64,000 bases of DNA from Brachycybe producta (taxonomy: Eukaryota; Arthropoda; Diplopoda; Playtdesmida; Andrognathidae), in NCBI GenBank assembly GCA_036925085.1, contig JAUPFP010000074.1:287501-351500 (forward strand), in the 5' to 3' direction. The translations under genes and the position numbers were made by a program. The notes under the pieces were generated by a model, which was not told the origin of the DNA, searched no databases, and saw only the letters and a program-made list of their open reading frames with translations. Shown piece by piece: positions 8,412 to 62,921 of the stretch (positions within the stretch are counted from its first letter, which is position 1; the number at the start of each line of letters is the position of its first letter).

Positions 8412-8415
8412 AATT

Positions 8416-8431: not shown

Positions 8432-8500
8432 TAGTTGAACAACTTGTTACTCCGTAAGCTACAAAAATCGTGTTGAAAAACACGCAGCAGAGAATCATCG

Positions 8501-20588: not shown

Positions 20589-20603
20589 CTCCCCCGACTA
20601 AGC
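20589..20603 (-). promoter_or_regulatory. Polypurine tract, family C
   Basis: Minus strand CTTAGTCGGGGGAG directly precedes the LTR start. The same tract precedes the LTRs at 40,226 and 47,152. Confidence 0.75.
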
Positions 20604-20841
20604 GCGAAGTACCCTACTTCTCAAGAAAACCAAGATAAACCTCCTACTAGATCTGAATTAGTAAAGATCCCGGGGATATCACAGGTAGCAATAAAAACCC
20701 TTTGAAAATAAAATTTGATTATTATATCACAGGTTTCATTAAAACAAAATACAAAATTTCTAGCAAGCATAAATTAATTAGACTAGAACTATAATCATCA
20801 TGCCAACTGGTCCGGCAATGACTCTGCTCCTTAAATGATTC

Positions 20842-22480
20842 CTATGACTCCAGTGCTAGGTGCCCTCTTCGATTTCTCCGACCAAACTCCGCTTCAGTTG
20901 TTGTCTCGTATAAATGCTCCAAGGTCTCCTGCGGGATGACAGTCAACCGCTCCAGCATGAAATGGCCTCAATGAAATCCTGTATCCTGGTGGCGGAGTAG
21001 TGCCTCTCGATGGCTCTCGGCAAAATGTGGCGAAACCTCCGGTCTTGGGTCCTGTCGAGAATTAGGGTGGCCAACATCGTTTCTGCTTTCAGGTCCAGGG
21101 TCCTTGTGCGGGATGGCTCCTGTGGTCCAGGGTGAATCAGCTGGATGGTGCTTGGATTGTCGCTGTTGTGAAGCACAACGACGGCGGGATACTCAGGTGT
21201 CTCCAGAATGACTGCGGTCAAGAGGACATTTCTTCTGAGTCGGGGCCGTTCACTGGAGATCTCTTCTGCTGCCGAAAATCCCCAAATATTGGAGCACATG
21301 TCATCCTCTGCTTCTAGAGAAAGAAACCAAATCATTATTCAAGAGCCGTACTTGACGACACTCCTGTTCCTTCTCTGGTGTCTTCTTCGACGGAGACAAG
21401 GACTTAGGCTTAGTGGCTGCTTGAGAGATCGCTCTCTTGGAAGATGCTTCCTCAGGAAATCCAGGGTGACCTCGGCATCCTCGAAACTGCTTTTTGCAAC
21501 GAGCTCCTTTCATTCGTCTTGCTTCACGTGGCGGTCTATCTTCGGGCAGTGATTGATTGTCGAAGTGGACCTCTCTCCTCTTGTTTCCTTCCCTAACAAC
21601 AGTCACTGTCGAGCGTGGTCGAGCCAGTTGTTCCCTACAATCAACAACTGGCGGTAGAGGTGAAGACAATATTTTCAATGGTGGTGACGGGACCGAAATC
21701 GGTCCCAACAGCACTAACTTTTTAGTTAATTCCGCACGGTATCCCCTGATGGTAGGTTCATTAACAGTGGCCCAACTGTTAGCGGGAGAAGTATCATGGA
21801 CTGGTTTTTTTATTTTCGGCAATACAGCACCGACTCTGGGAACTTCTATTGGCTTCAGTCCCCTTTTTACGCATTCTTCATTCTAACGGGCTATCCACTC
21901 ATGCATGACCCTCTTGTCGGCATTTCTTTCTTCTAGGGTGCGGCCTCGGCGATTCGAGGAGTAAAACTTCACTGGTACTCCCCTTCGGCATCACTGCCTG
22001 GTGGCATGTCAATTTCTTCAGGGGGGCATGGTAACTGCTTCATCGGGTCACGGGCTGGTCCTATGTAGATGCCCTGCTCTGGATTCCTTATTTGAATGGG
22101 TGGAGATCTCATTAAAGAGACAAATTTCGCAATCAACTCATCCTCTGATTCGGGGCTCTTTCGCTTCTTGACAGAGTTGCCCAAATCGTTCCTGTTCTTG
22201 CTGGATGTCAAGGCATTGCTGCCTGAAGGCTTTTCAGCCACGATGGCTGCATCAGTTTTCTGGCGGCATCCTCGATATCCATTGCATCGTAGTCGTGGCC
22301 TTCTCCAAATAAGGATATAAAGTTGAATGAGTTCTCACTGCTGGATGACTTCCCTCCAAAAGAACACGGCATCTCCTTTGCAAAATAAAACTTTTGAGCA
22401 CTTGTCACGGTAGAAATTCCCGAAACTTCCTTTTCGTGTCATTCTCTTGCAGAAGTAAATTCAAAAGTGGCATCCAAAAC
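20842..22480 (-). pseudogene. Post-integrase ORF, family C, decayed copy
   Basis: Minus-strand frames at 22,208-22,408, 21,969-22,241, 21,301-21,822 and 20,943-21,335 align in order with the better copy at 38.2-39.9 kb. Shared passages are SSSENSFNFISLFGEGHDYD, VKKRKSPESEDELIAKFV, NSWATVNEPTIRGYRAELTK and RNVLLTAVILETPEYPAVVV. The sequence ends GHLALES at about 20,842. The protein is basic, Pro- and Ser-rich in the N-terminal two thirds, and ends in the domain shared by all four families (RLLNN at about 21,330). No transmembrane segment is evident. The function is unknown; position after integrase is the typical place of an accessory or env-like gene. Several frameshifts disable it. Confidence 0.75.
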
Positions 22481-23610
22481 GGCGGACGCTTCCCACGTGG
22501 TTCTAAGGGGTTGCCAAGTCTTGTTTCCGGGTCAAAAAAGGTGGAGCTATATGACAACATCCGGTTTCTTTTCCTTTTCTCTTCTCTCGATTTCTTTCAC
22601 CAGGTGGTGCTGTGCAAGGTAGCAAATTCGAATCTCTGCATTGTCTGATGCTTCTTTTTGACTCTCTGGGTCTAATTTGGCCATTTTAATGCCAAATTTC
22701 ACCCATCTTGGTGGCAAATTAGCATTTGCATAATCATTTTTCTTTCCACCACGTGTTTGCACACAGGAATCCAATTGAACTGTTTCTTTAGGAGCAGTTA
22801 TCTTCTTCCTCCCACATTTTCTTTTAGGTGGTTCCAGTGGGATCTCTGGAATATTTTCTTTTTTTCAGAAGTATCTTCATGAGGCTCTTGGCCGGCATCA
22901 GGGATAACTTCTTCACGATGGCCTTCTGGAGTATTCTCAACAGTTGGTTAGTTTCTTCGTAACAATGCAGGATTCTGTTTATGACCAGATAAGTTTCTGA
23001 GCCATTCCTGGCTTTGGCATACAATCTCTGATCAACACTTTCTGATCCAGTTTGTAGTCCGGAATCATATGAAGTTTTTGGTCGTAATTTTTCTTCTGCA
23101 CCTCCTGGGCAGCCTCGATATTTCTTTTAGCAGCATCAAAGGCTGGATCAGACTGCTCTGCTTCATTTGTTACAGCCGGTGGCACGATAGGAGCACATGG
23201 CATCATGTTGTCCAATGTGGTCCTGGGCTCGTGCCCGAACATCAGTCAATATGGTCAACATTTCATAGGGTTATGTTCTACAAGATTGTAGGCTATAACC
23301 GCATCACCTAACTTCTTTTTCTAATCAGGCTGTTGCTGAAGGACATCTAAGTGATGTTTCACCACCTCCATTATGGTGTGATTCATTCTCTCTGCCAACC
23401 CATCAGCTTGAGGATGATAGGTGGTTGTTGCTGTGTGCTGGATTGTGTAAGACTTAAAAACACGTAAGTCTCATTACTCAAGAATTGGGGTCCTCAATCA
23501 GTGATGAACTTCTGAACTCCAAATTTGTTAACAATTTTGTCCTTGACGAAGGGAATTGCTGCCTGAGCAGTTACTCTTGCCACTGCTTTGGCGATGCAAT
23601 ACTTTGTCTG
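22481..23610 (-). pseudogene. Integrase and C-terminal tail, family C, partial
   Basis: From high to low coordinates the minus strand encodes VARVTAQAAIPFVKDKIVNK with KFGVQKFITD (integrase core, acidic residue in ITD). It then encodes MFGHEPRTTLDNMMP and DYKLDQKVLIRD (C-terminal part) and a tail with CVQTRGGKKND and EIRICYLAQHHLVKEIERRE. The tail is also present before the extra ORF of the family-B element at 63.1 kb, so it is a conserved Pol end. Stops and frameshifts occur. The front of integrase and all of RT and RNase H are deleted, with the junction near 23,610. Confidence 0.75.
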
Positions 23611-23666
23611 CATCTGTATTGGAGTTGCTGGGAGAACCTTCCGGTTATTCCGTTGGTATTCATCAT
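23611..23666 (-). pseudogene. Gag start, family C, truncated
   Basis: The minus strand begins ATGATGAATACCAACGG at 23,666, identical to the Gag start at 44,480. After about 18 codons it joins integrase sequence. This is the left side of the internal deletion. Confidence 0.7.
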
Positions 23667-23819
23667 TGGTTATCGTATATTGTGACAATAAAAATATAAA
23701 ATGTTTCGAAAAATTTAAGTTCAAGGAAAGAAATTGTTTGTACAATTGAATACGATACTGCTTCGTGTTTTTTAACATGCTTTTCAATGGTAAAACGAGG
23801 TAGCAAGTTTTATAAACTA

Positions 23820-23835
23820 CCACACACCTCCACCA
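23820..23835 (-). promoter_or_regulatory. Primer-binding site, family C
   Basis: The minus strand reads TGGTGGAGGTGTGTGG, a slightly changed form of the PBS at 44,312, five bases inside the LTR end. Confidence 0.7.
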
Positions 23836-23840
23836 TATAT

Positions 23841-24690
23841 TGTGACAAACCTTTTTCCACTGGTAGAATCTTCTCTTTTAAAGTAATCCGAGCGAGTTTG
23901 CACTCGTATTGATAGTGAGTGGCTAGGTCACTAATTCTACCAGCCCAGGAGGACTAAACCAATACAACATCTATTTTATGTCCTTACTAGTTTCTGGCTA
24001 AAGACTTTCACAGTCTTCAGGATCTTTAGTTTCTGTATCTCAGACTTTCGTAAGAAAATTTGCCCTGAAAAGTGTGGAATATACTTACACTCTTGCATTG
24101 CAGGTTTGACCTGATTGGAGTCTTGAAGTATCCAAAAGGGTGAAGAGCTGCAATATAATGATGAAAAAGTGCATTTCAAAATAATCCAACATGAAAAGAA
24201 TAACACAAAAACACCATAAAAAATATGTAAAATCAAACTGGCTATGAACCTAGCCACAATTGGGCATAGGTTCGGTCTTTTTAAATCGGTCTCAAACAGA
24301 AAATTACAACTCTTTATATACCCTGAGAATCCAGAAGTCAGATTCTCAGAGCACAAACTTCTGCTTGGTTTAATTAAACTTTTTGGCCCAAATAGACCAA
24401 TCAACAGATCAGTCTATTTGGCCAAAATCCCTGACTCATCTTCTGTTAACACACTTATGTGATAACAGAAGAAAATGTAAACAAAACAATTAAAAATTAA
24501 AAAACCCACTCATGTGGAAGTTAAAACGAGGGGCAAATAAAAAGGTCAACATTAAAACTAGAATCTGGGTCACTTGGTACCAAAAGTACGGAGTGGCCCA
24601 GAAGCTACACAAGATACAGGGAGAAAAACAAAGTTAGAACACCAAAATGACGAGCACTAATGAAAAAAAAAAACGGTGGGCCCAAACAAA
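23841..24690 (-). mobile_element. LTR, family C (5' LTR)
   Basis: Matches the 3' LTR at 19,753-20,588 with scattered differences and one extra hairpin arm near 24,360-24,390. The first bases (outer end, near 24,690) are altered to TTTGTTTGGG. Together the two LTRs define a 4.9-kb, internally deleted element on the minus strand. Confidence 0.8.
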
Positions 24691-31660: not shown

Positions 31661-34430
31661 TAATTTTGAATTTTGAATTTGAAAAATTACTCTGCAAGCA
31701 GCCATAAAGGCCTATAGCAGAGGGACAAGAGTCCAAGTGCAGCATAGAAAATGCATTGTCAAAACCAGAAAATATAAAACCCTATTGATATAAACCCAAC
31801 AACAATTTCAATATTTTTTAATGCTGCAAATATATGCATTGTCAAAACAAAACAAAATTATGAATCCCATAAAATACGTTTTTCCTGCACAAAATCCCCA
31901 GCAAGCAAGTTCCATTGTCGAATCGCCCTAGGGACAAATGACCAGTAATAAGAATCTGTTCGTGCAAAAATCTCTCCAACTTTGTTAGAGTGGTCACCCC
32001 TAGCCAAATATAATGCCCTGCAAAGTTTACTTGAAGTAGGTTTAGGGCAAGAGCCTTCTAGCATTCGATTAAAGATATTAAGACTAAAATCTGAACGTCT
32101 TGCAAGTAAACTATCCCAACCAAGCTCTGAAAGCATTTTAGTTACACTGTCGGCATATCCATATTTACCACAAACAAACCTAGCAGCCCTGCATTGGACC
32201 ATTTCTATAGAGTGAGCTAAGTCTTCAGTGTATGGATTCCACACGGAGCTTCAGTATTCTAGATGGGGACGTACTAATGATTGATATGCTATACATTTTA
32301 CCTCCCTGGGACACCTTCTTAGAACGCATTGACTAAACCTAAGCATCTGCATAGACTTGGAAATAATCTGTTCGACATGCAGCTTCCAAGAAAGTTTAGC
32401 TGTAATCGTTACCCCCAAATATTTATAAGAATCTACGTTATTAAGTGGAATGACCCCTATTCTATATAGAAATATTATTGGATTCCTTCCCCTAGCTACC
32501 CTCATTACACAACAAGTTGTCATTTAGAACACCATGCCTCTATTGCTTTCAAGTCACTATCAATAATATGGCAATCATTGTCAGAGGTAACCTCACAATA
32601 AATTATTGTATCATTTGCAAATAGCCGGCAATTGCTGCTAAATTGACTGCTGAGGTCATTGATATATAAAAGAAACAGAAGCGGAAACAACACACTACCC
32701 TGAGGAACCCCTGATGTAACCCCTATCCAGTCAGATTCAGACCCACCTGCAACAACCCTTTGTTTCCTATCACTCAAAAAAGAATGCACCCATTTATACA
32801 CCTGTTCACCCAATCCGTACCCACTAATTTTTGTCATTAGTTTTGAGTGAGAAACTGTGTCAAATGCCTTGCAGAGATCAAGAAAAACCAAATCTATCTA
32901 ACTGCTTTTGTCTAAAATTTTCTGAAGGTCATCAAATTAAAAAAATAAGCTTTGTTTCACATGAACGCCCCCTAAGAAACCCATGCTGGTTATCACACAA
33001 AAGATTGTTTTCCATAAGAAAATTCATTGAGGAGGAATATATAATATGTTCAAGGACCTTGCAAACTATCGAGGTTAAAAACACGGGTCAGTAATTAGTT
33101 ACCTGATACTTGTCTCCTGATTTAAAAATTGGACTAACATTAGCTAATTTACACATATCTGGTACAATACCTACATCTAAACTCTGTTGAAAAATTAACT
33201 GAAGGTATGGACCCAACTCTTGTGCAAGATTTTTTAAAATGATAGCATACATCCCATCTGGACCACAGGTTTTATTTGAGTCTAATTTTAGAAGTTGCTT
33301 GACTATCCCATCTGCAGTTATTACAATTTGATCCACACAAAGAGATGTTGAAGGAAAACCCTCATGTGGTATGCCATCATCAATTGTGAAGACCTTCTTG
33401 TATTGTTCATTTAATAAGGTAGCTTTCCCTACTTAATCTGAAACAAGCTTCCCATTTGTGTCAACCAGAGAAGGAATAGATTCTCTACTTCGCCTAGAGT
33501 TCTTGATGTAACGCCAAAATAGTTTTGGGTCCGTTTTAACCATTCTCCAAGCGTTTCTGTTTTAAAATTATCGTGAGCTAACAAGATTTCCCGTTTTGCT
33601 GCTGTGCATGCAATACGGAATTCATTGGAATTCACTAATTTTGGGTGATTTCTAGCCCTAGTCCTCCATAAGCGAAGAGCCCTTTTAACTTTGCTAGTGT
33701 ACCATACTGGTGTGGCACAGTCTCTAACTACCTTGGTTGGAATAAAGGAGGAAGACCCACTTAAAATTAAACTATGAAATTGTGACCAAATCAAATTCAC
33801 ATTTTGAGGATGAAAACATTCTTTAAATTTATGAAAATTATCTATCAAATGTGACTTAAAACCATCCCAATTACATTTGTTAAAAAGAAACACTACTTTT
33901 TTAACCTCAGAATTTTTTTCCACACATGCATTAACATTACATAAGACAATCTGATGATCACTAATTCCCCCTGATACCCTAACATTGGATAATAACTCCG
34001 GGCTACATCAAGAATTTTGTTATTTCTGGTTGGTTTAGTTACAACCTGTTCCATAGAATAAGTATTCATACTATCTAAAAATGAAACTGCTAATGGCTTG
34101 TCACTGCCACTAATCACCGTATGCATTTCCCAGTTGATGTTTGGAAAATTTACATCACCTCCTAAAATAATCATTGGGCTATAGTATTTACGATGAAGAG
34201 TGTCCAAAGAAGTTCTTACACTAGTGACATCTGCTATGGAGGATCCCGGTGGCCGATAGAAAGAATATAAAAACACCTTTTTACAAATCTTTAACCTTAA
34301 ACTACAACATACTATTTCACAGTCTGTTTCAAAACTTGTTTCCCTGCAACTATGAAATATTTGTGAAATAGCTATGAAAACCCCACCCCCAGAACGACCA
34401 ACCCTGTCTCTACGGTACACTGTGAAACCA
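31661..34430 (-). pseudogene. CR1/Jockey-like LINE ORF2, second copy
   Basis: Same family as 26.2-29.2 kb, with the same simple-repeat tail (plus strand AATTTTGAATTTTGAATTTG at 31,662). Reading on the minus strand, the endonuclease starts at YRRDRVGRSGGGVFIA (34,420). RT motifs are at VTSGVPQGSVL and CRLFANDTIIY, where the second residue of the FADD box is changed to N. A deletion near 32,515, several stops and a lost stretch near 34,005 break the frame. It is inserted between unassigned family-A sequence and the integrase C-terminus. Confidence 0.85.
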
Positions 34431-34764
34431 CGCCACGGAAGAGGTCGAAATCACAATTGCCAACCTGCATGAGGCCCATTTGCGACAAAAAAAGTACTAC
34501 GATGCAAGACAAAAAACTCCACACACGTACAAAATCGGAGACCCAGTACTCGTTCGAGATCAACGCATCGTGCCTGATGAGACCAAAAAGCTACGTTACT
34601 CGTACAGGGATGGTTACACGGTAACCAAAATCATCAGCGACACGGTGCTCAAGCTGGAGCACGAAGATATGTTTGGAAGACTGATTCGAGACACGGTGAA
34701 CATTGTCCACATCAAGCCGAAACAAATGAGGACAGTTGTTCAAGGGTTGGAGGGGGAAGAATAA
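34431..34764 (+). pseudogene. Integrase C-terminus, family A
   Basis: An open frame from EEVEITIANLHEAHLRQKKY through YKIGDPVLVRDQRI and KKLRYSYRDGYTVTKI to QGLEGEE and a stop at 34,764. The order HLRQKKYYD, GDPVLVRD and NIVHIKPK is typical of the C-terminal part of Ty3/Gypsy integrases. The upstream core is cut away by the LINE. It identifies the internal region as a + strand element sharing orientation with both LTR-A copies. Confidence 0.75.
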
Positions 34765-35397: not shown

Positions 35398-36189
35398 CAC
35401 AGCACGTGCTGTCAACCTGACGACATCAACCAACCCGTCCTGCCATACTGCCGTGTCCCCAGCAACCCCCGAGCTACCCCGGCACCTATAACCTTGCCGC
35501 AAGTGACACAACCTTTTCGCATACCAACAGTAACTACCAGAAGACTACAGGTATACCGACCACTTCGTCAGGAAGCACAATGTGAAAGACTGCTAAACAA
35601 TTGCTGGGCACTCTGGCAACGACAGGTGTGGACCGTGAAGACCTATTACCTGGGTCACTATGACCTGATGGAGGGATTTCCGCGCCTCTACATACCGGAG
35701 GAAGGACGCTATGTTGTAGGAATGTCATACTACCTGCAACACTCAATGGCCATAATAATTCCGTCCACCCGGTACATCGAAATATACCAGTTTGCCGAGC
35801 AGCCCATTACTCCAGCATTGGGCGCCCTTCAGCAGGCTTTCTTCAACAGTCTCCTGGGAGTCCCACCTAACGGAGCATACAGCATTGCCCGAATGATCGT
35901 TTGGAGGACCCGTGCCACTTACCAGGCTGCCATCCTGTGGGACGCCGTTTACAGTGTCCTCACCGGGCAACCACCAGCCCGACTGATCGCCGCCGACGCC
36001 ACCGTTCACCGGAGTTTCATGGAAAGTCTCCGGGGCTTCAACAACAAATGGATCATCCCCGCCTGGGAGTCCTACCATCTTTGGCTGCGGAGTCACCTCC
36101 TCCACTCACCGTCAGACCCCCAACAAGCACTCTACGGATATCTCTGCATGCACGTGTGCATGCAATCACCCGACGTGGGTATAAGTTAG
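35398..36189 (+). CDS. Post-integrase ORF, family A
   Basis: Open for 263 codons from the stop at 35,395 to TAG at 36,187. The first in-frame ATG is only at 35,668, so the start is unclear: splicing or a frameshift from the ATG at 35,352 are possible. The part from about 35,584 carries ERLLNN, 15 residues, then YYLGHYDLMEGFP, then RYVVGMSYYLQHSMAIII. This is the pattern found near the C-terminus of the extra ORFs of families B, C and D. The end has many aromatic residues (WIIPAWESYHLWLRSHLL). It lies between integrase and the 3' LTR. No signal peptide or clear membrane span. I do not recognise the family; an accessory capsid- or nucleic-acid-related role is only a guess. Confidence 0.6.
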   Translation, partial: HSTCCQPDDINQPVLPYCRVPSNPRATPAPITLPQVTQPFRIPTVTTRRLQVYRPLRQEAQCERLLNNCWALWQRQVWTVKTYYLGHYDLMEGFPRLYIPEEGRYVVGMSYYLQHSMAIIIPSTRYIEIYQFAEQPITPALGALQQAFFNSLLGVPPNGAYSIARMIVWRTRATYQAAILWDAVYSVLTGQPPARLIAADATVHRSFMESLRGFNNKWIIPAWESYHLWLRSHLLHSPSDPQQALYGYLCMHVCMQSPDVGIS

Positions 36190-38205: not shown

Positions 38206-39939
38206 GAAGTAGCTAATAGCTCCGCCTCTTCTGACCCGGAAATTAGACTTGGCAACCCCTTAGAACCATGTGGGGACGCTGCCGCCATTTTGGACGCCAC
38301 TTTTGAATTTGTTTCAACAGGAGACGGACGCGAAACCAAAGTTTCGCAATTTTCTAAAGTGACACGTGTTGAAAAGTTTAATTTTAAGAAGAAGATGCCA
38401 CGTTCTTTCGGAAAGGAGTTAGCCAGCAGCGAGGATTCCTTCAATTTCACCGCCTTATTTGGAAGTGATCATGATGACAACGTGATGGAAATCGAGGACG
38501 CCGCCCTAGAGACCAGAGCAGCCATCGCGGCTGAAAAGCCTTTAGGCAGCAATGCCTCGACTTCCAGCAAGGATAAGAATGATTAGGGCAACTCTTTGAA
38601 GAAACGGAAGAGCCCCGAATCGGAAGATGACTTGGTAAATCGTTTCGTCCCTCTAATGAGATCTCCGCCTCCTCAGTTAGGTGATCCAGAACCGGACATC
38701 TACATGGGACCAGCCCGGGACCCGAGACAGCAGTTCCCGCGACCCCCAGAGGAAATGGACACGCTGCCCGGCAGTGATGCCGAAAGGGGAGTACCTGCCG
38801 AGTTGTACTCCTCAAATCGCCGGGGCCGCACCCGAGGAGAGAGGAATGCCGACAAAAGGACTATGAAAGAGTGGATAGCCCGCCAAAATGAAGAGTGTGT
38901 CAAGAGGGGTCAAAAGCCCATAGAAGTCCCTGAAGTCGGCACCGTGTTGCCGACCACCAGAAAACCAGTTCGTACTACATTTCTGACCAACAGTTGGGCT
39001 ACAATCGACCAGCCCATTGTTCGAGGATACCGGCCAGAGTTAACGAAGAAGCTGGTGCTGCCAGGATCAATTTCGGTCCCGACACCACCAAGAGAAGTAT
39101 CGTCTACATCTCTACCGCCCATTATCCCTTTCAGGCCACAATCGACAGTAACTGTCGTCCGAGAGGGAAATAAAAGAAGGGAAGTCCACTTCGACCGACC
39201 ATCGCCGCGAGAAGACCGGCCACGAGAGATTAGACGACCGAAAGGTCAGGGGTCCGCTGCCCGCCGAAAAGCTCGTCGGGACGAACAATTTCAAGGATGC
39301 CGAGGACACCCTGCCAGTCCAGTAGAAGCGCCATCTCAGGGAGCAATCCCTAAGCCAGCAACGAAGCCTAAGTCCTCGTCTCCATCAAAGACGATGCCAG
39401 AAGAGGAACAGGAGCGTCAGTTACGTCTCCTTAATAATGGTTTAGTTTCCTTTTCTAGACGCGGAGGACGACACGCACTCCGCTACTTGGGAGTGTTTAA
39501 CAGTAGAAGGGAGATAACGAACGAACAACCACGACCCAGGAGAGATGTCCTCTGGACCGCTGTCGTTCTAGAGATGCCAGGATATCCCGCCGTCATCGCA
39601 CTTCACGCTAGCGACGAATCGAATGTAATTCAATTGATCCACCCTGGGACTCGGGAGCAATCCTGCACCAGGACTCTGGAACTCATTGCCGAGACCATGT
39701 TGGCCCCTTTGATCCCCGACCGGACGCAAGACCGAAGATTTCGTCACCACTCGCCGAGGGCCATCGAGAGGGACTTCTCCACCACCAGGATGTTGGACTT
39801 CGTGGAAGACACCGTGCTAGCCACCTTGGAGCGGTCGACTGTCATCCCACTGGAGACATTGGAGCGGCTCTACGAGACCACGACGGAAGCCGAGTTCGGA
39901 AGGAGGGATCGACGCGGCCACCTGTTGCCGGAACCATGA
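38206..39939 (+). pseudogene. Post-integrase ORF, family C, one stop codon
   Basis: A frame open from 38,206 to the stop at 39,937-39,939, broken only by TAG at 38,584. In the copy at 22 kb that position is a Leu codon, so a single T-to-A or T-to-G change explains it. The first ATG is at 38,395 (MPRSFGKELASSEDSFNFTA), but similarity between copies begins earlier (LGNPLEP, then DATFEF). The N-terminal two thirds are charged and Pro-rich (KKRKSPESEDDLVNRFVPLM, GRTRGERNADKRTMKEWIA). The shared C-terminal domain has RLLNN (39,426), 15 residues, YLGVF (39,486), then WTAVVLEMPGYPAVIALHA. The end is GHLLPEP. It lies upstream of a PPT and 3' LTR. Function unknown. Confidence 0.75.
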
Positions 39940-48576: not shown

Positions 48577-51480
48577 ATCCTCTCAACTTCTCTGTTCTAT
48601 CTCGGGAACAGGTCAGTCGAGCCAGCCAGGATTGCTCCCTTGAACCTGACCTTCTTAGGTGCCGGACAGCTTCTCTGACTGTGTCGCGAAAGTGGAACCC
48701 ATCCACTCTGCAGCCCACCGACGTGCCCACCACAGGCACATCTGGGTGTTACGCCACCCAAAACCAGTATCGAAGACCGTCCCCTAAGACAGCTTTCCTC
48801 CAGGGCTCGGAATTCCTCGAAAGGAATATCCTGGAGTTGCGGACGTGTGCCTAGGTCACATCCCAGCAAACGTTGGATGAATGGGGCTGCATGCCGGGCT
48901 AGACGAACTATCCCGGCATCTAGTTCCACCACATCCAAAATTGCGAATGTTTGCTGGACCGGGTTCACGACCATTACTACCGGAAAACCTCCACAACCAA
49001 ACGCCACTACATGGCGCATGTTGTACGGCGGTAGCCTTGCTACCTACGACTCTGGAAGTGGCTCATCCAGACGGTAGTAGCCGTGGTATTGGCAACCCTC
49101 CATTCCCGGCTGGTCCTGCCAAAGACCCAGTCAGTTATTCAGATACACCTCTGCATCTGAATACGGGGGCAATGCGCCAATATGCCGTCCCTCGGCCTCA
49201 GGCCTAGGGGAGGCTGACGTTTCTGGTCCTAATGTATCAAATACCCCGCCGCCATGGACCGGAGAGAAGGGTGTACCCCACTGGGGGTCACGGGGTCACG
49301 TCTTGGGGGAACACTGACTCCCGCCACCAAGGTTCCTTCGCCCTTAGGTGAGGGCAAAGTCACATGGTGCAGGGTTCCGACCACTCGAACCCGCAGGCTC
49401 GAGACCGCATCCACCTTCGGGGAGGATGGAGGTGTGCCGACCAAAATGTTGCGCATCGACCTACCATCCATTAACGGGATCCATCCGGATCGGCTGACTC
49501 CCGGCCGGCGTGCCTGCCTGAGCACGTCGGGACTCCTTCTTTTCCGCCACGACGCATCCAGTTTTGGCTCTCTGGCGCCTGCTACTGGAGGGTGTCGGAC
49601 TCCCCTTCCTCTCACGCTTGGATTTTTTACTGTCCTTATTTTTCTTTTTCTTCCCGTGAGAGGAAGGTTGACCATGCGTCGTGTAAGACTTAACTGACCC
49701 CGACAACTTACTGGGCCGGTCAGGCTTAGGTGGGTGGTTAGCCCTCTTCGCCTTCTCGGACTCCTTTGAAGGTTTTCCGGCCGGAGCCGTACTCTTCTTC
49801 GCAGAAGCACCATTAGCCGAGGTGACAGCCGAGGATGATTGCCCGGAGACAAATCTTCCTCGACCATCCCGAACGAGAGGCTTCTCCTTCGGTGCAAGAG
49901 TCGGCTGACTCTTGCTACCAGTAGCTTTGGCTTCCGCACCATGGGCTGGTGCACTGGAAGCGTGCATCGCCTCCCTCTCGGCGATTCGCTTCTGGCCAGC
50001 GATGGTCGTGGCACTCGCAATTGGCAGGACACCACGACCGACAGGAGGTTTTCCTGTTTTGAGCGGACTCCAGGCGGGTATCCCCTGCAGGGGAGGGAAC
50101 TCCGCAGCCCGGCGCTCAAACTCCTGCCACTCACTTGCTCCGACCGCACCAGCGATCTGTCGGTGCAAGCTCGCTGTTTGAGCTTGAAGCCGTTTGAGCT
50201 TGTCCTCCAAGCTCTCGGGCTTCCGAGGTTCGAAGGCCTTTCCTCGACCCGAGGACCTGGCCTTATTGCCTCTCGAGCTTTTGGCAACTTGTGGGGTGTG
50301 AGGGCGGGACCTCTTTTGTCCCTTGCCACCACCACTACTCGCAGATTTCCCCGTTTTACCAGGAGCGGGTACTGGAGGCTGAGTAGCCTTCTTCTCCGCT
50401 CGCTGGTCTCTCTTCAGGTTGTCCGACTGCCAGCCGGAGTGGCCAGCTACTGCCTCGGGCGGACCCGATACAGCAGCCAGCTTCTCTGGCCAGGCAGCCC
50501 CTGGACAACCGTCAGGGCGGGCGAGAGTTTCAGCTTGAAGCCCCAGAGCAGGCGTGAACTCCTTCAACGCCTCCTCCTTAGCTTTAAGCTTAGCCTCTCT
50601 CTCTGCGAGAGCCTTGGCCCTTGCAGTGATTCGTGTGGCTCCGGACTTCTTCTTGCGCTTTTTTGCGCCGTCCTTCCTCGCCTGCACGGTGGGAATCTCC
50701 TCAATGAATAATCGACGGTCCCCGACCAGGAAGCCACCTTCCTGGACCACGCCCCGTCTAGCTTCATCTAACCGATCCAAGCGGCCTTCTTCTTCAGCCA
50801 AGGACTCAGCCACGGCCTCCAAAGACATTTAATCGGTGGGGAGAACTCCGGGGATCCCGTCCCAGACGGTTTACCCTCGGAGGCCGAACTACTCCCGTCA
50901 GATTCCAAAGAGCCCTCTGAAGAGGAGTTGCGACTCCGCCACTGCTTTGAGGCATCAACCACCGAATCAACGGTGGTTTTGACCTCCATCTCCGTGTCAA
51001 TGACTAAGGACACTCCCAAGGAGACGTCCTTACTGTCGTCGACCACTCTAGAGTCTAGGAGGTCTCGAACAGCCGGAGACCCGGGTGCCGGGGGTACTAG
51101 CGGTTACCACACCGGTAGCCGCTTTCCCACCATCTACACCCGTTTCTGCAGGCTCTCCAACCGGAGAAATTACCGCCGCCACCGACTGAACGGTGGTAGC
51201 AGCCGTATTCCTGGGGAGACTGCAGGTATCTGCCCCAGAAGGCTCCGACACCGGTCAGAGTCGACTGGGCAGACTTCGGACTTTCCACGGCTTCTGCTGC
51301 CGGGGAATCAACAGATTCCACGGTGGCGTCAGCCGTTTCCGGTCCGCCAGATGATGGGGAGCCCTCTGATCCTGATTCCAACAGCCTTGCATCCTCAGGA
51401 TGCAGCGGGCTTAGGGAGGGGGACCGTTGGCCACTCCCGTCGCCTTCCTCCTCCTTTTCCGTGGTGGACCTGTTACAAAG
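48577..51480 (-). pseudogene. Post-integrase ORF, family D, best copy
   Basis: The longest piece, 49,461-50,828, is open for 455 codons: MSLEAVAESLAEEEGRLDRL, EGGFLVGDRRLF, then Lys-, Ser- and Pro-rich regions with coiled-coil-like KALAEREAKLKAKEEALKEF. Upstream minus-strand pieces read STLTGVGAFWGRYLQSP (about 51,240) and MEVKTTVDSVVDASKQW (about 50,970). The C-terminal part (49,210-48,597) has VYLNN, a stop, then 15 residues in total to YHGYYRLDEPLPE, then MRHVVAFGCGGFPVVMVVNPVQ. It ends 20 bases before the LTR. Shifts near 51,230, 50,830 and 49,490 and one stop break it. No membrane or signal segment. Function unknown. Confidence 0.7.
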
Positions 51481-52707: not shown

Positions 52708-53802
52708 TCACCTCGAACACCCTCGGTCTCCACGGACGGAGATTATATCAAGGAGGAGGGGGTTGTCTGCCTCGAAGTCGGTAGACTCCTGCGAAGAAAT
52801 AGACGTTGACGAAGCCTCCGTGGCATCGCTACCTGCATCGGAGGCGGTGTCAGAGACACCAAGTCCATCTTCCTCTCTCACTGTGCAGGTGGGTATATGC
52901 GGCTTCAGGTTATCTACGTGCAACCGGTCGCGCACCTTCCGACCATAACCGTCTACGAACTCTATCTCGTAGACTAGGTCAGAATACCGCGCGACCACCG
53001 TACCCCTCTCAGCTTTATAAGCCAAGCTCCACTTCTTCGCCTGGCCGAGCTTCTGATCTCTTATCCACACCTGATCTCCAGGCTGATACAGAGGAGGCTC
53101 CACACGGCCAGCGTCATACCTTTCTTTCTGCCTTCATTGAGCAGCCGTCAAACGTTGATGAGCCTGCTCCTCCACGGCTCGCTGGTCAGGCAAGTCGTGG
53201 ACTGGACAGTTCGGAAAGGAGGTTATCAATCTCCAACCGAGGCTCACGGCCAAACAACTGATACGGAGAGACCTGTGTTATAAGCTGAACAGGTGTGTTA
53301 TAAACCCACACGGCGGGCCGTAATTTGTCCCACCAGTCACGCTGTTCCTTGAGGGGATCAAGGTACTGCTTGATGGTTTCCATTACGGTCTTGTTCATAT
53401 GCTCCGTAAGCCTATTAGCTTGCAGATGGTACGCCGTTGTGAAGTGATGCGCTATATTATAGCGCTCCTGGAACTTCAGGACTTTGCTGGAGAACTGGGA
53501 CTCATGGTCCGAGACAAGAGCTTTCGGCGTGCCATACACCGAAAGGATCTCGTCCTTCAGGAATTTCACAACACAGGCGGCCGTGGCCTTTCGTACCGCC
53601 CTTGCCACACCGTAATGGGTGAAATAGTCAACCATGATAAGCACATAGGTGACTCCACCCACAGAGGCAGCAAACGGTCCAACGAAGTCCATTCCCCAGG
53701 TATCAACTGGGTACTCCGGCACAATCGGTTGGAGAAATTCCTGACTTCGAGCGAACTGTCGCGCTCTCTGACACACCAAACATGACTTAACATATTCGGC
53801 CG
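52708..53802 (-). pseudogene. Integrase core and C-terminus, family D
   Basis: On the minus strand: LVCQRARQFARSQEF, WGMDFVGPFAASVGGV (first acidic residue), ALVSDHESQFSSKVL (second), LTEHMNKTVMETI, then PYQLFGREPRLEID. The C-terminal frame 52,708-53,103 has YQPGDQVWIRDQKLG, KWSLAYKAERGTVVARY and DRLHVDNLKPHIPTCTV and ends with a Ser-rich tail. The two parts lie in different frames (shift near 53,110-53,220). Integrase joins cDNA to the genome. The N-terminal zinc finger is separated from it by a solo LTR. Confidence 0.85.
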
Positions 53803-54609
53803 TGTGACGACCCAGTTCTGCTCCTTTTTGGAGTAGAACTAAAATCCCATGTCGTCTGCTAGGCACTTGCAAATTAAGTGCCAGGCAGACGACAAAATGG
53901 CCAGCAAGGGTCCCTGTCCTCCCCCAGGTGGAGCAGCCTGGGGGTGATATATATGGCGGCGGCCATTATATCTGGACAGTGGAATGAGAACCCTGAATGA
54001 CTGTGGTTGTGTGTGTGCTCTCATCAAATCAACAGGTGGCCAAAATGGCCACCATTCATCTTTTGCCTTTGTGCAGTGAGGAGGTAAATGACCTCTCTCT
54101 CTCCTGGCTGAATTAGCCAGGAGAATCTTCATCTGCATCTATTTGGTTGGCTCTCTGCTGGTTTATTTACCAGCAGATATTGCCTTTATACAGTGAGTGT
54201 TTTGATCATTTATTCTCTTTGTGAATAAATCTCTTATATTTTCACTCTCTACCACTGTGTCCGTGTCTTTATTATTATTGCATAATATTACTGGGGAAGT
54301 TACCGCGGGGAAGGTGGGGGTTCCGGTGTGGGGAAACGCCGTCACCATCACCGTCCTGGTTCGTCATGTTTTCCGGCATGTCGGCCGGTGCTTCGCGCAC
54401 GGTGCCACGGTAGGATTCATCGGGAATCTACCGTGGCCTCTCCGTCGACGTGCGGCGAGGGAGACGGCCTCCGTCCGGCACTACCCGTGGATACGGATGG
54501 GTACAAGAGGAGGGCTGGCCAGCGCTTCGACCCGTCCCAAGGAGGTCAAGCGACTGTAAGTTTGCGAAATTTACTGTGGGTATTGTAGCGACCAAGTCGG
54601 GTCGTTACA
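53803..54609 (+). mobile_element. Solo LTR, family D, with 4-bp target duplication
   Basis: TGTGACGACCC to GGGTCGTTACA, 807 bp, flanked by GCCG (53,799-53,802 and 54,610-54,613). Removing it restores integrase sequence that matches the other copy at about 15,330 (GGGCGGTGTCGCGCTT). It lies opposite in orientation to its host. Hairpins: AGTTCTGCTCC (53,814), GTCGTCTGC...GCAGACGAC (53,851-53,893), and CCCCCAGG...CCTGGGGG (53,921-53,944) just before TATATAT (53,948). AATAAA lies at 54,224. Confidence 0.9.
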
Positions 54610-55988
54610 GCCGTGTCCCGCTTCATACCGATCCAGTAGAAGCGTGAGCGCAGTCTCTTGTAGGTCTTAAACATCCTGAAGTGACCAGCTTCGGGAATGT
54701 CATGTAGCTTCCTTAAGCAGAAAGCCCTGCATGACTTCGGAACTACCAGTACAGTTCTCAACGGATCCTGGATGGACCTGATGGCAAACAACAAGTCATC
54801 TGCCACCACAAACTTGAACCGGAGGTTCGAGTTGGGGTCACGGAAGATTTCACTCTTCACCTTGGAGCACCAGCCATCAGCCTCTTGCTCCTTGACCCAA
54901 TCCACCTTGGGACGGATGTGGTAAATTACCTCACCTACATCGGCTTCGACGTATTCAGGCAAGGAAAGGTCCGCCACATCACAAACAGGATACCGACTCA
55001 AAGCGTCGGCATCCACGTGCAGTGTTCCCTTCCTATACTGAACCTTGAACCGGTACTCTTGAAGTGGCATCTGCCAACGACCCAACCTGCCTTGCAGGTT
55101 CTTGGCAGTCTGCAGATAGCAAAGAGCGTGGTGATCAGTTACAATCACGAACTCCCGGTTAAAGAGGTAAGGACTGAATTTACTCACGGCAAACATAACC
55201 GCCAAGCACTCCTGCTCGGTGACCGAATACCGTGTTTCCGGTCCTTTCATGAGTCGGCTTGCGTAGGCCAGAACCTGGGTGACACTGTCCTCTGGTAACT
55301 TCTGGTGAACTTTGACTCCCAAGCCGTACCCACTAGCGTCGGTATGTATCATTATCTCACCACGAGGATCGTACATGGTGAGTACTGGTGCTTCGGTTAA
55401 AAATGCCTTTAACCAAGCAAACGCTAGATTGCACTGATCCGGCCACTTGAAGGACGCATCCTTCTTCGTCAGATCATGCAAAGGCCTTGCCACCTTGGTG
55501 AAGTCCTTGATGAACCTTTGATAGTAACCGGCAAGTCCGAGGAAAATGCGGACGCCTGTCACCGTCATCGGAACATCAAACTCCTGAACTGCCCGCACGA
55601 GATCCTGGTCCGGAGCAACCCCCTCGGCACTCACTATGTGACCGAGATAACGCACTTTGTTAAAGCCAAAGAAACACTTCTTCGGCTGGAGTTTTAGCTC
55701 CGCCCCTCGTAACAGTCCAAGGACAGTGGAGAGTCTCGAGAAACTGTTCGAAAGTGTTCCCAAAGACGATAATATCGTCCAGGTACACCAGGCAAGTCTC
55801 CCACTTATGTCCTGCCAATAAGAGGTCTAGCGCTTTCTGCATGGTGGCTGGAGCATTACAGAGTCCGAAAGGCATTTTCCGGAACTCAAACAGACCGTGA
55901 GAGCAAATAAATGCCGTTTTCTCAATGTCTGGATCAGCCATCCGAACCTGCCAGTAACCACTAGCCAGGTCCAAGGTAGCGAAGAACC
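54610..55988 (-). pseudogene. RT (partial), RNase H and integrase N-terminus, family D
   Basis: The RT part (55,660-55,988) has FATLDLASGYWQVRMADP, KMPFGLCNAPATMQ and the catalytic CLVYLDDIIVFG. A shift near 55,740 moves into the long frame 54,546-55,763: KKCFFGFNKVRYLGHIVSAE, FLGLAGYYQRFIKDF, RNase H IHTDASGYGLG with intact first Asp, SVTEQECLAVMFAV and IVTDHHALCYLQ. It ends with the integrase zinc-binding start (LRKLHDIPEAGHFRMFKTYK). The upstream half of RT is cut off by an RTE LINE at 55,990. This is the best-preserved pol in the window. Confidence 0.9.
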
Positions 55989-55989
55989 A

Positions 55990-56790
55990 AATGAAAGAAT
56001 CCAAAATGGAACTCGAGATAAGGTTAGGGGAGACTATTAATGCCTTTGAATCAAAGGGGTTGAAAATAAGTAGGGCAAAAGCGGAGTACATGAAATTTCG
56101 GTGGGATGGGAAAGAACAGTTGAATAAGGGGATTAGACTTGGGGACAGTTTAATGCAGCAGATGCATGACTTCAAATATTTAGGATCTGTGCTGCAAGAT
56201 GATGGGAGCTTAGACTTAGACATCACAAACCGGATAAAAGCAGGTTGGCATAGGTGGAGGCAGGCTAGTGGGGTATTATGTGACAGGAAGTTACCTATAA
56301 AATTGAAGGGAAAGTTTTATAGGGCAGTAGTCAGACCAGCTATGTTGTATGGGTCAGAATGTTGGGCAATCAAGAAGGTGCATGATGATAGAATGCAGGT
56401 AGCTGAGATGAGAATGCTAAGGTTTATGAGTGGGGTGACCAGAAGGGATAGGATCAGAAATGATTTTATTAGGGGTAGTGTAGGGGTAACAAATATAGTA
56501 GAAAAGATGCAGGAAAATAGGCTGCAGTGGTTTTGGTATGTCCTCAGGAGCAGGGAAGATGGGCTGCTGAGGCAAAGACTTAGACTTAGACAAAGAACTT
56601 AGACCAGGGAATAAAACGGGGTGGAGGAAGACCCAAGCAAACCTGGGACATGGTAGTAAACGGGATATGGTGGCATGTGGCATCACTGGGGGCTTGGTGC
56701 AAAAACCGGAATGAGTGGAGAGTTAGAACCAGCAAGGCCGACCCTGCTGCTTGCGGGATAAGGTACAGGAAATGATGATTATGATGATGT
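55990..56790 (+). mobile_element. RTE-type LINE, 5'-truncated, in the RT gene
   Basis: Frame 55,991-56,602: INAFESKGLKISRAKAEYM, FKYLGSVLQDDGSLDLDI, AGWHRWRQASGVLCDRKL and VVRPAMLYGSECWAIKK. This is the end of RT and the C-terminus of RTE/BovB-like elements. The 3' end has the typical ATGATGATTATGATGATG tail (56,772-56,789). Only the last quarter of the element is present. Family-D RT does not resume after it, so a deletion accompanied or followed the insertion. Confidence 0.85.
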
Positions 56791-57306: not shown

Positions 57307-58303
57307 GTAAATGTCACTTAAGTAGCTTTAATTGCAATTGTGTATTTTTAATGTGGCCTTTGTGTTTTAATGTAAATACATGTAAATGCAATTATTAAAT
57401 ACTTTCTTCATTTCAAATTGGTTATACTTACATTTCCTAGTTAAATGATTTTCTTCATGTGAGCTTTGTTGAAATAATGTGTGCTGCATACATACTTATT
57501 GGATCTTTGTTGCTCCAAATGAGTACACAGATCCTATATTATACTGCAAAGAGAAAAGGCAATTTTGTCTTTGTCGATGTGTGTATGGATCCCTGGGCGT
57601 TATTTCTCAAGCACAGCCGGAAACATTGTGATGAACTTTGCATACAGTACATCGATATATAAACGGGAGAACATCCTAAAAAAATTAATTCATCAAGTAG
57701 TTAATTAGTTATAATTAATATTCTATGAAATTTTTGTAAAATTTTAATTTTTTGTTCTTGGCGATATAACTTGTGAACGGGAGCACCTATAACATTCAAG
57801 TAAATTCTTTATGAATATGTGTGTTGGGGCAGTCCCTTCCCCAGCTTTCGATTCAGTCATGGGTGTGACATCGGCCAAGACAGGTTCAACTGTGAACTTC
57901 AGGTTCCAAGGATCACAATATCTATCCAATCTTTTTTCTCCGGTATGGGAGGAGAAGCTTATTGGGCCCTGTTCTTCTGTATTCAGAAATGAAGTTTTTC
58001 TCAACAACTGAATGGTTCTATGGCAAGACCGGCATTGTAGGGAGCATTACCAATACCATTGTTATTACGGACTAGGCAAGCCTTTCCTATAGGCGTGGCT
58101 GAGTTCTTGACGACCTCCCAAATTAATTTACATTGTTGCTGTAAGTTGGGATGGATTATCCACAATTGATATTGGTTAATCTGGTTCAACAGTCATTCTT
58201 TGTTTTCTATGTGGTGGGACAAGGTGTGGGGTCTGTTGCTGTGGACCTACATGCTGCCTCACTCCTTGAGTTATATTTGGAATGCAATTTTGGAGGGATG
58301 ATG
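57307..58303 (+). other. DEPDC5 intron 3, unassigned
   Basis: Moderately AT-rich. A few frames of 60-70 codons (57,459-57,662; 57,811-58,011) look protein-like in composition, but I recognise no family and they have no start context or neighbours to support them. Confidence 0.4.
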
Positions 58304-58421
58304 GGTCAGTATTTGATGGAACCATCATTTGTCAGTATTTGATGGAACCATCATTGGTCAGTATTTGATGGAACCATCATTGGTCTGTATATGATGGGAC
58401 CATCATTGGTCAGTATCATGG
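58304..58421. repeat. 26-bp minisatellite
   Basis: The unit GTCAGTATTTGATGGAACCA followed by TCATTG is repeated about 4.5 times with few changes (one copy has CTGTATATGATGGGACC). Confidence 0.85.
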
Positions 58422-59653: not shown

Positions 59654-60584
59654 TGTAACGAACCACCTTGTGGTGGATAAAATATACTAAAAAGCGGTTG
59701 GCTAAGCCGCTTATTTTATCCTGGTTCGGGAGGAAGGGAACAAATTAATCCCTTTTTCTATTCCTCACAAGTTCTTCCTTGTTGAACTTTTACAGTAAAA
59801 TGGATCTTTTAGCTGTCTGCTACCCCTCGGGCTTTCGCCCGTTAAAAGCTAGTTGATCGTGCTGTCTCTTGAAGTTGCATCTAGAAGTGTTGATCCGGGT
59901 TTTCACCCGGATTGATAATTCAAGATGAAGATGATTTGAGAACTTTCGTTCTATCCATTAAGTATAAAAAATAAGACTTGGCAATTTTAAAGCATAACAT
60001 TCGTTTATTTACAGTTCTATTCCTTGAGGTCTATCCCAAATTGGGCATAGATTCTCTATTTACAGAATGCTTCCCTAGTCTTTAAAAAGACTGTTCTCTC
60101 GGAACAAACTTGAGCATAGAATCGTTGGCTCAAGAGTGCTTGATTCACACAAAAATACACGGCCTTTTATACCCAAAAAGAGGATACTGAGAACCATTTC
60201 TCAGTATTCTCTGATTGGGTAAAATCGAAATGAATAACCAAACTGGCCAATCAATTTGATTGACCAGTGGTTAACAACATATAGAAATATGATTCATCCT
60301 ATAAAACAGACAATATTTCCAAGAAAAATACAACCCCATTGACTTAATGCTACTGCTTATCAGCATGATCTTTTTGTATTAAGGGGTGGGACTGGGAGAG
60401 AAAGAGTCCCAAGACCCAAGAGGTGACCTAAGACAGGATATTGGCGTTGTCAGCTGAGAGAACTAGGTCAATCCTCTGTACATCAGTACAGAGGGTTGAC
60501 AAAGTTCCAGGCCAATCTAAAACAAAAACAAACGATCCACAATAAACTAAGTGAGCCAGGAGTGCTCCTGGACTGATCGTTTCA
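59654..60584 (-). mobile_element. LTR, family B (3' LTR)
   Basis: On the minus strand TGAAACGATC (60,584) to GGTTCGTTACA (59,654). All three GAAA hairpins are present in R-U5, and CCTCTGTAC-TGAT-GTACAGAGG is fully paired. It is about 70 bp longer than the other two copies around 60,060-60,140. A G-run PPT precedes it. Confidence 0.85.
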
Positions 60585-60600
60585 CCCCCCCAACTAAGCC
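60585..60600 (-). promoter_or_regulatory. Polypurine tract, family B
   Basis: Minus strand GGCTTAGTTGGGGGGG ends directly at the LTR; similar to CTTAGTCGGGGGAG of family C. Confidence 0.7.
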
Positions 60601-61259: not shown

Positions 61260-62921
61260 TTAGTGGTCCGGCTCCAAGTGGCCCTGCTGATCCCTGGCTC
61301 CGGGTTCTGCCTCTGTCGAAATGATGTTGAGGTCCTCCAGCATCCTTAGGCGGACGACCTGCGACCGTGGGATTGCTCCCAAAATGATGGACTCCATGAA
61401 GTCCAACTGCTGAGTTGCCAGATGCGCGTTTCCCTCCTGTTCCTTGAGTCGATGGCGGATCACGTTGCGGTGTCCTCGGCTATTGGGGATCAGGGTCGCT
61501 ACCATTGAAGAGATGACTACCTCCAGGATGTTACTTGTGGACTTGTCCCAAGGCTGCGGGTAGACAAGTTGAAGCGTCCCTGGCTCGGCATTGTCATGAA
61601 GGACAACGACAGGCCAATGATCTAAAACCTGAATGATTACTGCAGTCCAGGGCCGGTCCAATCGCGGACGGAGTCGATCCTCTTTAATACCATCGTCACC
61701 GTGGAAGAAACCTAGATACCTGAAGACATTTCTTCCCCAGCGACGCCCAAAAGATACCAAATTGTTCCTTAGGAGCCGAAATTGCTGTCGGTTGGAAAGC
61801 TTTCCATCCGACATATCCAGTCGGTCCTTTGGCCATTGTTGAGGAGGTGGTGGTGGAGAGACCTTCGGGATCGCTCCCGTAGGTGGTCCAGGCGCTGGTC
61901 TGCTTGGATGCCCGCGTTCCCCTGCGAAGATCTGGTCCCGACGTTCCCTCCTCTCCGTTGCACCTTGTCCTTTCCTGGCCTGTCCAGGTATGTGCGGATG
62001 ACGAAACGGCTGGATTTTGGCCGTCTCGAACCTCCTGGCTTCGTCCCTTGACTCTTCCCTTGGTCTGGTTCGTTGTTCCTCTCGAGGCTGACTCTTTGTG
62101 ATGTCCCCTTGGCGTCTTGGGTCCCTTGGCCTCTCAGCAACGAATTTTTCCCTGTTGAGCCGAGCGGGATTGCTCACCGCTGGTGGATGAGCTTCTCTCC
62201 TCGGTTCTACAACTTTGGAAGCAATGGAGACCCTCTCCATCGCCCCAGACAGAATTAGTGGTTGATTAGGTCGATGCACATACCCTTTTACGACTGGCTG
62301 GTCCACAGTAACCCAACTGTTCGAAGGGGAGACTTCCCTTGGCGTCGTCCTTTTTGGTAGCGCTGTTCCAACTGCTGGCACCTTAATTGGGGATCGTCCC
62401 CTAGCCATCAGTTCCTTGTTTTGACTGTCGATCCAGTCCTTCATTGCCTTTTTATCGGCGTTCCTTTCGCCTTTCGTACGACCACTCCTACGAGAGCCCC
62501 CTAGCTCTGCTGGCAGACATCCATCATGTAGACTCCCCGGTGGAGTATCCATTTCTTCCGGTGGCCTTGGGAACTGTAGCATTGGGTCGCTTGCGGGCCC
62601 TTCGTAGACAATTTCAGGTTCCGGGTTGCCGCTTCTACGCTGCCCGGGAGGAGAATGTATCAACGGAACAAAATTAGTGGTCTCACCCTCTGGCGTTTTC
62701 CTTTTCTTCGTTTTCGAAGATCCTTTTGCTTTTTCCTTTGTAGGAGATGAAGGCACGGCATTGCTGCCGGGAGGGATCCCTGCAGCGATGATTTCGTCGT
62801 CTTCTCCAAAAAGCATTCTTAGCCAGTCCGGCGTCATTTCGCCGGTGTCCATTGGTATCTCCAATTCGGAAGTTCCTTCACTTCCAGGTTTCCCTTGATC
62901 CATGGATTCGGCCATTTTCAT
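61260..62921 (-). CDS. Post-integrase ORF, family B, intact
   Basis: Uninterrupted for 586 codons from 63,020. The first ATG is at 62,921 (MKMAESMDQGKPGSEG), giving 553 residues. The N-terminal two thirds are basic and disordered-looking: KKRKTPEGETTNFVPLIHSP, GRTKGERNADKKAMKDWI (also in family C), SNSWVTVDQPVVKGY, then many Arg, Pro and Gln. The C-terminal third carries the shared domain: RLLRNNLVSFGRRWGRNVF, RYLGFF (about 61,712), then WTAVIIQVLDHWPVVVLHDN and a final QGHLEPDH. It stands between the integrase tail and the 3' LTR. No signal peptide, membrane span or known catalytic motif. Its integrity, next to a deleted pol, suggests either recent insertion or selection. Function unknown; nucleic-acid binding is suggested only by charge. 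Confidence 0.75.
   Translation of the reverse strand: MKMAESMDQGKPGSEGTSELEIPMDTGEMTPDWLRMLFGEDDEIIAAGIPPGSNAVPSSPTKEKAKGSSKTKKRKTPEGETTNFVPLIHSPPGQRRSGNPEPEIVYEGPASDPMLQFPRPPEEMDTPPGSLHDGCLPAELGGSRRSGRTKGERNADKKAMKDWIDSQNKELMARGRSPIKVPAVGTALPKRTTPREVSPSNSWVTVDQPVVKGYVHRPNQPLILSGAMERVSIASKVVEPRREAHPPAVSNPARLNREKFVAERPRDPRRQGDITKSQPREEQRTRPREESRDEARRFETAKIQPFRHPHIPGQARKGQGATERRERRDQIFAGERGHPSRPAPGPPTGAIPKVSPPPPPQQWPKDRLDMSDGKLSNRQQFRLLRNNLVSFGRRWGRNVFRYLGFFHGDDGIKEDRLRPRLDRPWTAVIIQVLDHWPVVVLHDNAEPGTLQLVYPQPWDKSTSNILEVVISSMVATLIPNSRGHRNVIRHRLKEQEGNAHLATQQLDFMESIILGAIPRSQVVRLRMLEDLNIISTEAEPGARDQQGHLEPDH

Follow-up and report, generated by a model that had tools for sequence, protein, structure and literature searches.

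Why do several families of long terminal repeat (LTR) retrotransposons in one millipede genome carry reading frames that fall into three unlike groups by their N-terminal parts and yet end in the same short pattern? The question arises from a stretch of 64,000 nucleotides of Brachycybe producta DNA (here the window; bases 287501-351500 of contig C74), for which a preliminary description had reported extra open reading frames (ORFs) between integrase and the 3' LTR in four families, A to D, with a shared C-terminal signature that it could assign to no domain. We find that these frames share a domain and that the domain is under selection. We lean slightly towards regarding it as a remote member of the Ulp1/SENP-like (clan CE) cysteine-protease fold without catalytic residues, a putative pseudoprotease of Ty3/Gypsy-like retroelements; its fold, its loss of catalysis and its role are what we infer. 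Genome-wide searches covered 295.3 Mb in 442 contigs, and all genome copy numbers below are lower bounds, as the search scores only the best candidates.

Across the six reading frames of the window, the pattern L[NR]N-x15-Y-x-[GS]-x-[FY] matched exactly six times, at the six copies already named: A (35593, plus strand), C2 (39430, plus), C1 (21342, minus), B (61772, minus), D2 (49142, minus) and D1 (10760, minus). The ORFs, strands and motif spacings reported earlier were borne out. Residue-shuffled frames averaged 0.025 matches per window, and a strict DNA version of the motif matched 4 times in the window and 0 times in 100 shuffles. The C1 and D2 matches each contain a stop within the x15 spacer, and the second Asn of LNN is invariant in all 19 aligned rows. 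Within the window, tblastn relates B and C along their whole length and gives no match of that kind between A, B/C and D. The count of four families was too low. A fifth, E, lies inside the window as a decayed relative of the D domain (57937..58339, plus strand; tblastn E 6e-7 to D1; genome relatives L078 and L082), and a genome search with a stop-free piece of E returned further E relatives and brought the number of families to six with F, which lies elsewhere in the genome and has a frame open over 2,296 amino acids.

Homology between the families was assessed with hhalign on profiles of family members, mostly genome copies, with column shuffles as the null. The A and D profiles align over 150 columns with a score reached by 0 of 200 shuffles, and the D and BC profiles with a score reached by 1 of 200. 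The comparison of A with BC alone is not significant (31 of 200 shuffles reach its score), so BC joins the set through D; with A and D combined against BC, the score is reached by 0 of 60 shuffles. The links to BC cover 30-35 columns around LNN...Y-x-G. A first set of smaller profiles gave weaker results (P 8e-4 for A-D, 0.09 for A-BC and 0.06, out of register, for BC-D), and multiple alignments from the window alone placed A out of register with D and were left unused for A. The profile comparison of A, B/C and D that the preliminary description had proposed thus came out in favour of one set for A with D and for A+D with BC, but not for A with BC alone. It is well supported by these comparisons that A, D, E and F carry what appears to be one common domain. 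B and C belong with them through the N-terminal motif and, in the family alignment (A6), through the hydrophobic hairpin that follows, less certainly so towards the C-terminus.

Selection on the domain was measured as the ratio of nonsynonymous to synonymous substitution rates (dN/dS) by the Nei-Gojobori method in 16 hand-picked pairs of copies. The ratio ranges from 0.02 to 0.31 across the 14 pairs with a finite value; in the remaining two (a third B pair and a B-C pair) synonymous sites are saturated and give no ratio. By family, values are 0.13-0.28 in A (4 pairs), 0.08-0.12 in C (3 pairs), 0.02 and 0.07 in B, 0.31 in D and 0.09 in F, with 0.29 for D-F, 0.20 for E-F and 0.27 for E-D; the B value of 0.02 and the E-F value rest on dS near 2.7, and the choice of pairs, mostly among intact, stop-free copies, favours low values. 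Between L069 and L070 of family B, 73% of synonymous and 5% of nonsynonymous sites differ. In family A the domain is better conserved than the part preceding it (91 vs 82% and 79 vs 73% identity), while C2 and B are 51% identical before the domain and 39% within it. It is very improbable that the motif came to be common to these families by chance, convergence or recombination rather than by common descent of a functional domain: the lack of a link between A and B/C alone and the out-of-register placement of BC on D in the first small profiles would fit such an origin, and against it stand six motif matches where 0.025 were expected, A-D and A+D-BC scores that no shuffle reached, and dN/dS well below 1.

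The setting of the domain differs between families. In family A it forms the C-terminal 229 residues (35500..36186, plus strand; motif match; at least 146 genome matches) of a separate ORF at 35398-36189, downstream of the end of a pol frame that encodes the C-terminal part of integrase (34426..34764, plus). In the related copy L047, which carries the integrase domain rve (E 5.7e-13), the pol frame stops at L047:865 and the extra ORF lies in another frame; among the loci read, its commonest form is 416 amino acids long.

In family D, the D2 element in the window shows the order of a Ty3/Gypsy-like element, with reverse transcriptase (RT) and RNase H (54546..56316; RT_RNaseH E 1.9e-32, RVT_1 E 2e-14), then integrase (53189..53965; rve E 3.3e-13) and then the domain (48849..49142, with in-frame stops), at 54.5-56.3, 53.2-54.0 and 48.8-49.1 kb, all on the minus strand. 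The D1 copy of the domain (10202..10844, minus) is frame-shifted, in pieces at 10497-10844 and 10202-10483. Across the genome, 10 of the 150 D matches listed have open frames of 2,879-2,966 amino acids. With the D2 integrase as query, 10 of these 10 copies were recovered, each integrase match lying in a frame as long as that of the domain match and some 4.0 kb away from the domain. In intact D copies, then, the domain ends one frame that it shares with integrase. The same search met a second group of D-like integrases, in frames of 2,311-2,370 amino acids, mostly about 2,369.

Family C is represented in the window by C2, whose domain (39337..39936, plus strand; motif match, genome copies) ends an ORF at 38587-39939, and by C1, whose domain (20946..21342, minus; motif match, tblastn) is broken by stops and frame shifts. 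The C1 element (19820..24671, minus) is bounded by a repeat pair, 19820-20563 and 23909-24671, which we read as LTRs and which enclose the domain and what remains of integrase (23201-23467); pol is for the most part missing. Of the 94 C matches listed, 22 place the domain in an open frame of 2,204-2,207 amino acids, one of them with a TGA inside the match. The copy L008 has no stop between the integrase core and the domain, which are joined by an integrase tail and a charged linker; judging from this one copy, the long C frames would contain integrase. The C integrase core matched only rve_3, at E 0.032, below the cut-off. The picture of extra ORFs between integrase and 3' LTR therefore stands for family A, where the ORF is separate; in D, and presumably in C, the domain is fused to the pol frame instead, and the B copies read have no integrase. 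What the preliminary description had suggested, an accessory protein common to a Ty3/Gypsy-like group of elements, agrees with the shared domain, with RT-RNase H and rve in D and rve in A, and with the low dN/dS, and appears to hold.

Family B is the most reduced. Its domain in the window (61263..61865, minus strand) ends an ORF at 61260-63092; the 3' LTR of this element (59654..60585, minus) matches the LTR of L098/L099, a copy with two LTRs identical over 764 nucleotides, and a second piece of the family (7550..9511, plus) consists of an LTR (7550-8411) followed by a gag ORF (8651-9511; Retrotrans_gag E 0.047, below the cut-off). LTRs were found in all three genome copies examined, which read LTR-gag-domain-LTR with identical LTRs. 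The copy on contig C23, with LTRs identical over the 764 nucleotides compared (the stretch read begins within one of them) and 5.3 kb between them, holds a frame of 340 amino acids like the window gag ORF, a zinc knuckle (zf-CCHC E 3.1e-5) and a frame of 994 amino acids ending in the domain. In the copies on contigs C8 (LTRs identical over 890 nucleotides) and C14 (a subfamily with 1,051 amino acids; LTRs identical over 601 nucleotides), a gag-like frame lies directly upstream of the domain frame. The coordinates of these three copies leave no space for RT and integrase. Their identical LTRs indicate that B elements moved recently, and they would have to borrow pol. Among the 74 matches listed, 18 have stop-free frames of 993-995 and 22 of 1,036-1,096 amino acids. 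At 44823-45428, next to repeats that match the flanks of C1 and C2, lies a gag-like frame with 56% identity to the B gag, which suggests that B may have arisen by deletion from a C-like element. The TR-GAG elements of plants, as far as the available account goes, are similar in being LTR elements with gag and without pol. TR-GAG elements carry gag only, whereas B has gag and the domain. In the family B copy L096 the knuckle and domain frames, which differ in phase, share 31 nucleotides (1211-1241) when taken from stop to stop, an arrangement also seen where elements rely on ribosomal frameshifting.

What, then, is the domain? Pfam names nothing in it, whether in the window ORFs or in the domains themselves. 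The idea that it is related to Ulp1 was recorded before any fold search. On this reading LNN would correspond to the WLND motif of Ulp1, Asn having replaced Asp, Y-x-G-x-[FY] would be the next strand, the following hydrophobic hairpin would be the hairpin that carries His...Asp in Ulp1, and a later helix would begin at the place of Asp-Cys-Gly, where it reads DPA/EPA, YQA, FST/YSA or HLA. Family A was modelled alone, and B together with C2 and part of C1. For the A model, which has a mean predicted local distance difference test score (pLDDT) of only 40.9, the top Foldseek hit is Ulp1 (2hl9, probability 0.87, E 0.074), and the order of its predicted secondary structures agrees with Ulp1/SENP. 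The B model is poor, and VIA and Foldseek returned ribosome recycling factor and other unrelated entries for it.

The host genome encodes C48 (Ulp1/SENP peptidase) domains of its own (at least 30 matches, some in transposons). A test of register against them was anchored on the His column of the family alignment (A6), made before any C48 sequence was compared. In 11 of 24 pairs of family and C48 sequence the predicted diagonal is in the top 5% of all diagonals, a count given by 0 of 160 common shifts, and 1 of 160 gives as low a mean rank. Eight of the 11 top pairs come from two related transposon sequences, the C48 sequence p1 contributes 0 of 6 and family C 0 of 4; because the rows are related, we take the test as support, not proof. 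Some of the best hhalign alignments are also in the expected register (BC LLNNGLVSF on WLNDKIISF, the D hairpin on its counterpart, A+D ATYQAAI on NSYDCGV), as are some of the best pairwise ones (D QTFAILD on QTFVILD, the B His-Trp on His-Trp). The preliminary description could match the signature to no domain, and the sequence libraries searched here name none, but secondary-structure order, Foldseek and the register test point to the Ulp1/SENP fold with its active site lost.

Other results weigh against that assignment. Unrelated folds score equally well or better by VIA Z. None of 19 members matches Pfam PF02902 at E up to 10, and searches of PDB sequences with single proteins and with profiles gave no significant match. 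Smith-Waterman comparison with C48 is not significant in any of 24 pairs, for hhalign against C48 between 2 and 15 of 60 shuffles do as well, and other best hhalign alignments, including those of A and of all four families combined, are off register. Alphavirus E2 and a designed repeat protein, which appeared in the PDB profile search at E 0.03-0.85, were judged chance matches. A set of 5.8 billion proteins gave no match among the best candidates (7,999 for B, 325 for A and 5,897 for alignment A6), within length limits that exclude most polyproteins. These results would also suit a homologous domain with a fold unrelated to Ulp1, its likeness arising from a common helix-hairpin-helix layout and from expectation; with a weak model and no significant C48 match in Pfam, in PDB profile searches or in profile-profile and pairwise comparisons, this is a real possibility, if one we think doubtful, given that the Ulp1 idea came first and Foldseek then ranked Ulp1 top, and that the predicted diagonal stands out in the register test.

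If the Ulp1-like fold and the alignment are right, cleavage would have been lost. Read from alignment A6, the columns of catalytic His, Asp and Cys hold Phe-Asp-Pro in D, Tyr-Asp-Pro in E and F, Gln-Tyr-Gln in A, Tyr-Gln-Ser in C and His-Gln-Leu in B, so that 0 of 19 rows have more than one of the three, and the Gln...Asp-Cys-Gly motif is absent as well; both statements depend on A6 being right. Family B alone has a His-Trp pair in the column of the Ulp1 His-Trp, with no Cys. We take D451 of Ulp1 to be the Asp of WLND, in which case the second Asn of LNN (19 of 19 rows) amounts to a D451N-like change in every family. In Ulp1, D451N removes a salt bridge to SUMO and abolishes binding, according to the accessible text of PMC3216068. 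The same source reports that a Cys-to-Ser mutant of yeast Ulp1 traps SUMO conjugates, which would suit an inactive Ulp1 that recruits sumoylated proteins of the host through retained binding to SUMO or a ubiquitin-like modifier; the D451N-like change in every family, if D451 is placed correctly, speaks against such a trap, and we think it unlikely.

The anatomy suggests a different role for the putative pseudoprotease, as a binding or structural module acting in cis with Gag. It would enter the particle as a Gag-(Pol-)domain product and there would contact Gag, RNA or a partner from the host on which assembly or delivery depends. Such a module, contacting Gag, RNA or an assembly partner, is the most likely mechanism that we infer, though on its own we think it less likely than not. 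It is the best single fit to the anatomy because the domain lies in the Gag-Pol or pol frame in D and C, apart in A and beside gag in pol-less B, and it would explain why elements without RT and integrase still keep gag and the domain. Chromoviruses carry a chromodomain that steers insertion, and the domain might likewise be an integrase tail with this function, lying 3' of integrase in A, C and D and in the same frame in D and in the C copy read. There is only a small chance of this, since B makes a targeting tail harder to fit (3 of 3 copies read carry the domain without integrase) and about 4.0 kb separate integrase and domain matches in D. In its widest form, our proposal is that a Ulp1-derived pseudoenzyme, having lost its catalytic residues and the SUMO-holding Asp, became a fixed Gag-linked part of a whole animal Ty3/Gypsy-like lineage, needed in cis, such that pol-less parasites keep gag and the domain and borrow all enzymes; we regard this as possible and a little short of probable. 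A fold kept under selection after catalytic loss would mean that a retroelement profits from the fold rather than from cleavage, and pol-less B would separate what travels with an element (gag and the domain) from what can be borrowed (RT and integrase).

Ulp1 or OTU protease domains recur in transposons, among them Ginger1, Mutator-like elements (MULEs) and Utopia/NeSL. Ginger1 elements lack RT, and the RT in D and the LTRs in B and C place the present elements outside that group. The likeness to Ginger1 lies in a Gypsy-like integrase, there with a GPY/F motif, followed by a C-terminal domain, which in Ginger1 is a Ulp1 (or OTU) protease; as described in the accessible part of PMC2836005, however, Ginger1 elements belong to the DNA transposons, have terminal inverted repeats and carry a domain that pfam02902 recognises, unlike elements with LTRs, RT and gag whose domain is unrecognised by sequence and lacks the catalytic residues. 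The same text suggests that Ulp1/OTU domains contribute actively to transposition, with the ubiquitin pathway and DNA repair as possible routes. Utopia/NeSL elements are retroelements with a Ulp1-like protease but, in the available portion of PMC4640811, non-LTR elements with the protease at the N-terminus. Bdelloid LTR elements have likewise captured an extra ORF (ORF3), though of env-like, GDSL or DEDDy types in what is accessible of PMC5408684, and the corresponding part of PMC6338049 mentions chromodomains, DnaQ-like exonucleases and helicases. Relative to the Ulp1/SENP peptidases themselves (C48, PF02902), the domain is alike in the secondary-structure order of the weak A model, the top Foldseek hit and the register of the His-Asp hairpin and WLND/LNN; it differs in that the triad and Gln...Asp-Cys-Gly are gone, LNN stands for WLND, and only 15 residues separate LNN from the Y-x-G strand. 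Among the titles and beginnings of abstracts listed from the open-access literature, none names an LTR element with a Ulp1-like domain, subscription papers and Repbase being outside that scope. LTR elements are thus known to carry accessory domains, and transposons to carry Ulp1; what would be new, as far as these titles and abstracts show, is a selected, catalytically dead version in pol-less elements.

A transposon of the same genome, L087, offers a further comparison: it has a C48 domain, and its QTFVILD resembles QTFAILD of family D, but its protein is transposase-like, bears a PHD-like finger and shows the His-Trp, Asp and Gln...Asp-Cys-Gly motifs intact. At least two copies of this element exist (L087 and L088, at C12:3728210 and C27:1094205), with a transposase-like frame of 1,049 amino acids that carries the C48 motifs and the finger; they presumably resemble animal MULE/Phantom elements. 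On three contigs (C2:4232005/4237984, C5:5401240/5407219 and C38:894947/900173, C2 being here a contig), weak C48 matches in frames of 844-1,088 amino acids also form pairs of opposite orientation, some 5-6 kb from each other, as if from a palindromic element or two mirrored genes.

The window further holds non-LTR elements of the endonuclease-RT kind, with two copies at 26431-29195 and 31663-34450 on the minus strand whose repeated blocks are 95-98% identical. One of the two sits just before the family A element, and a third, inverted piece (14019-15228, plus strand) splits the D1 integrase. Outside the window, the mitochondrial COX1 gene, with ten TGA codons in frame, lies on contig C442 (15.4 kb), and the 900 bases read, with AGA at Ser-like and AAA at Lys-like places, fit the invertebrate code 5; the protein resembles those of arthropods. 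A near full-length nuclear copy of COX1 with one TAA lies on contig C1 (C1:12697416-12698753) and scores almost equal to the mitochondrial contig.
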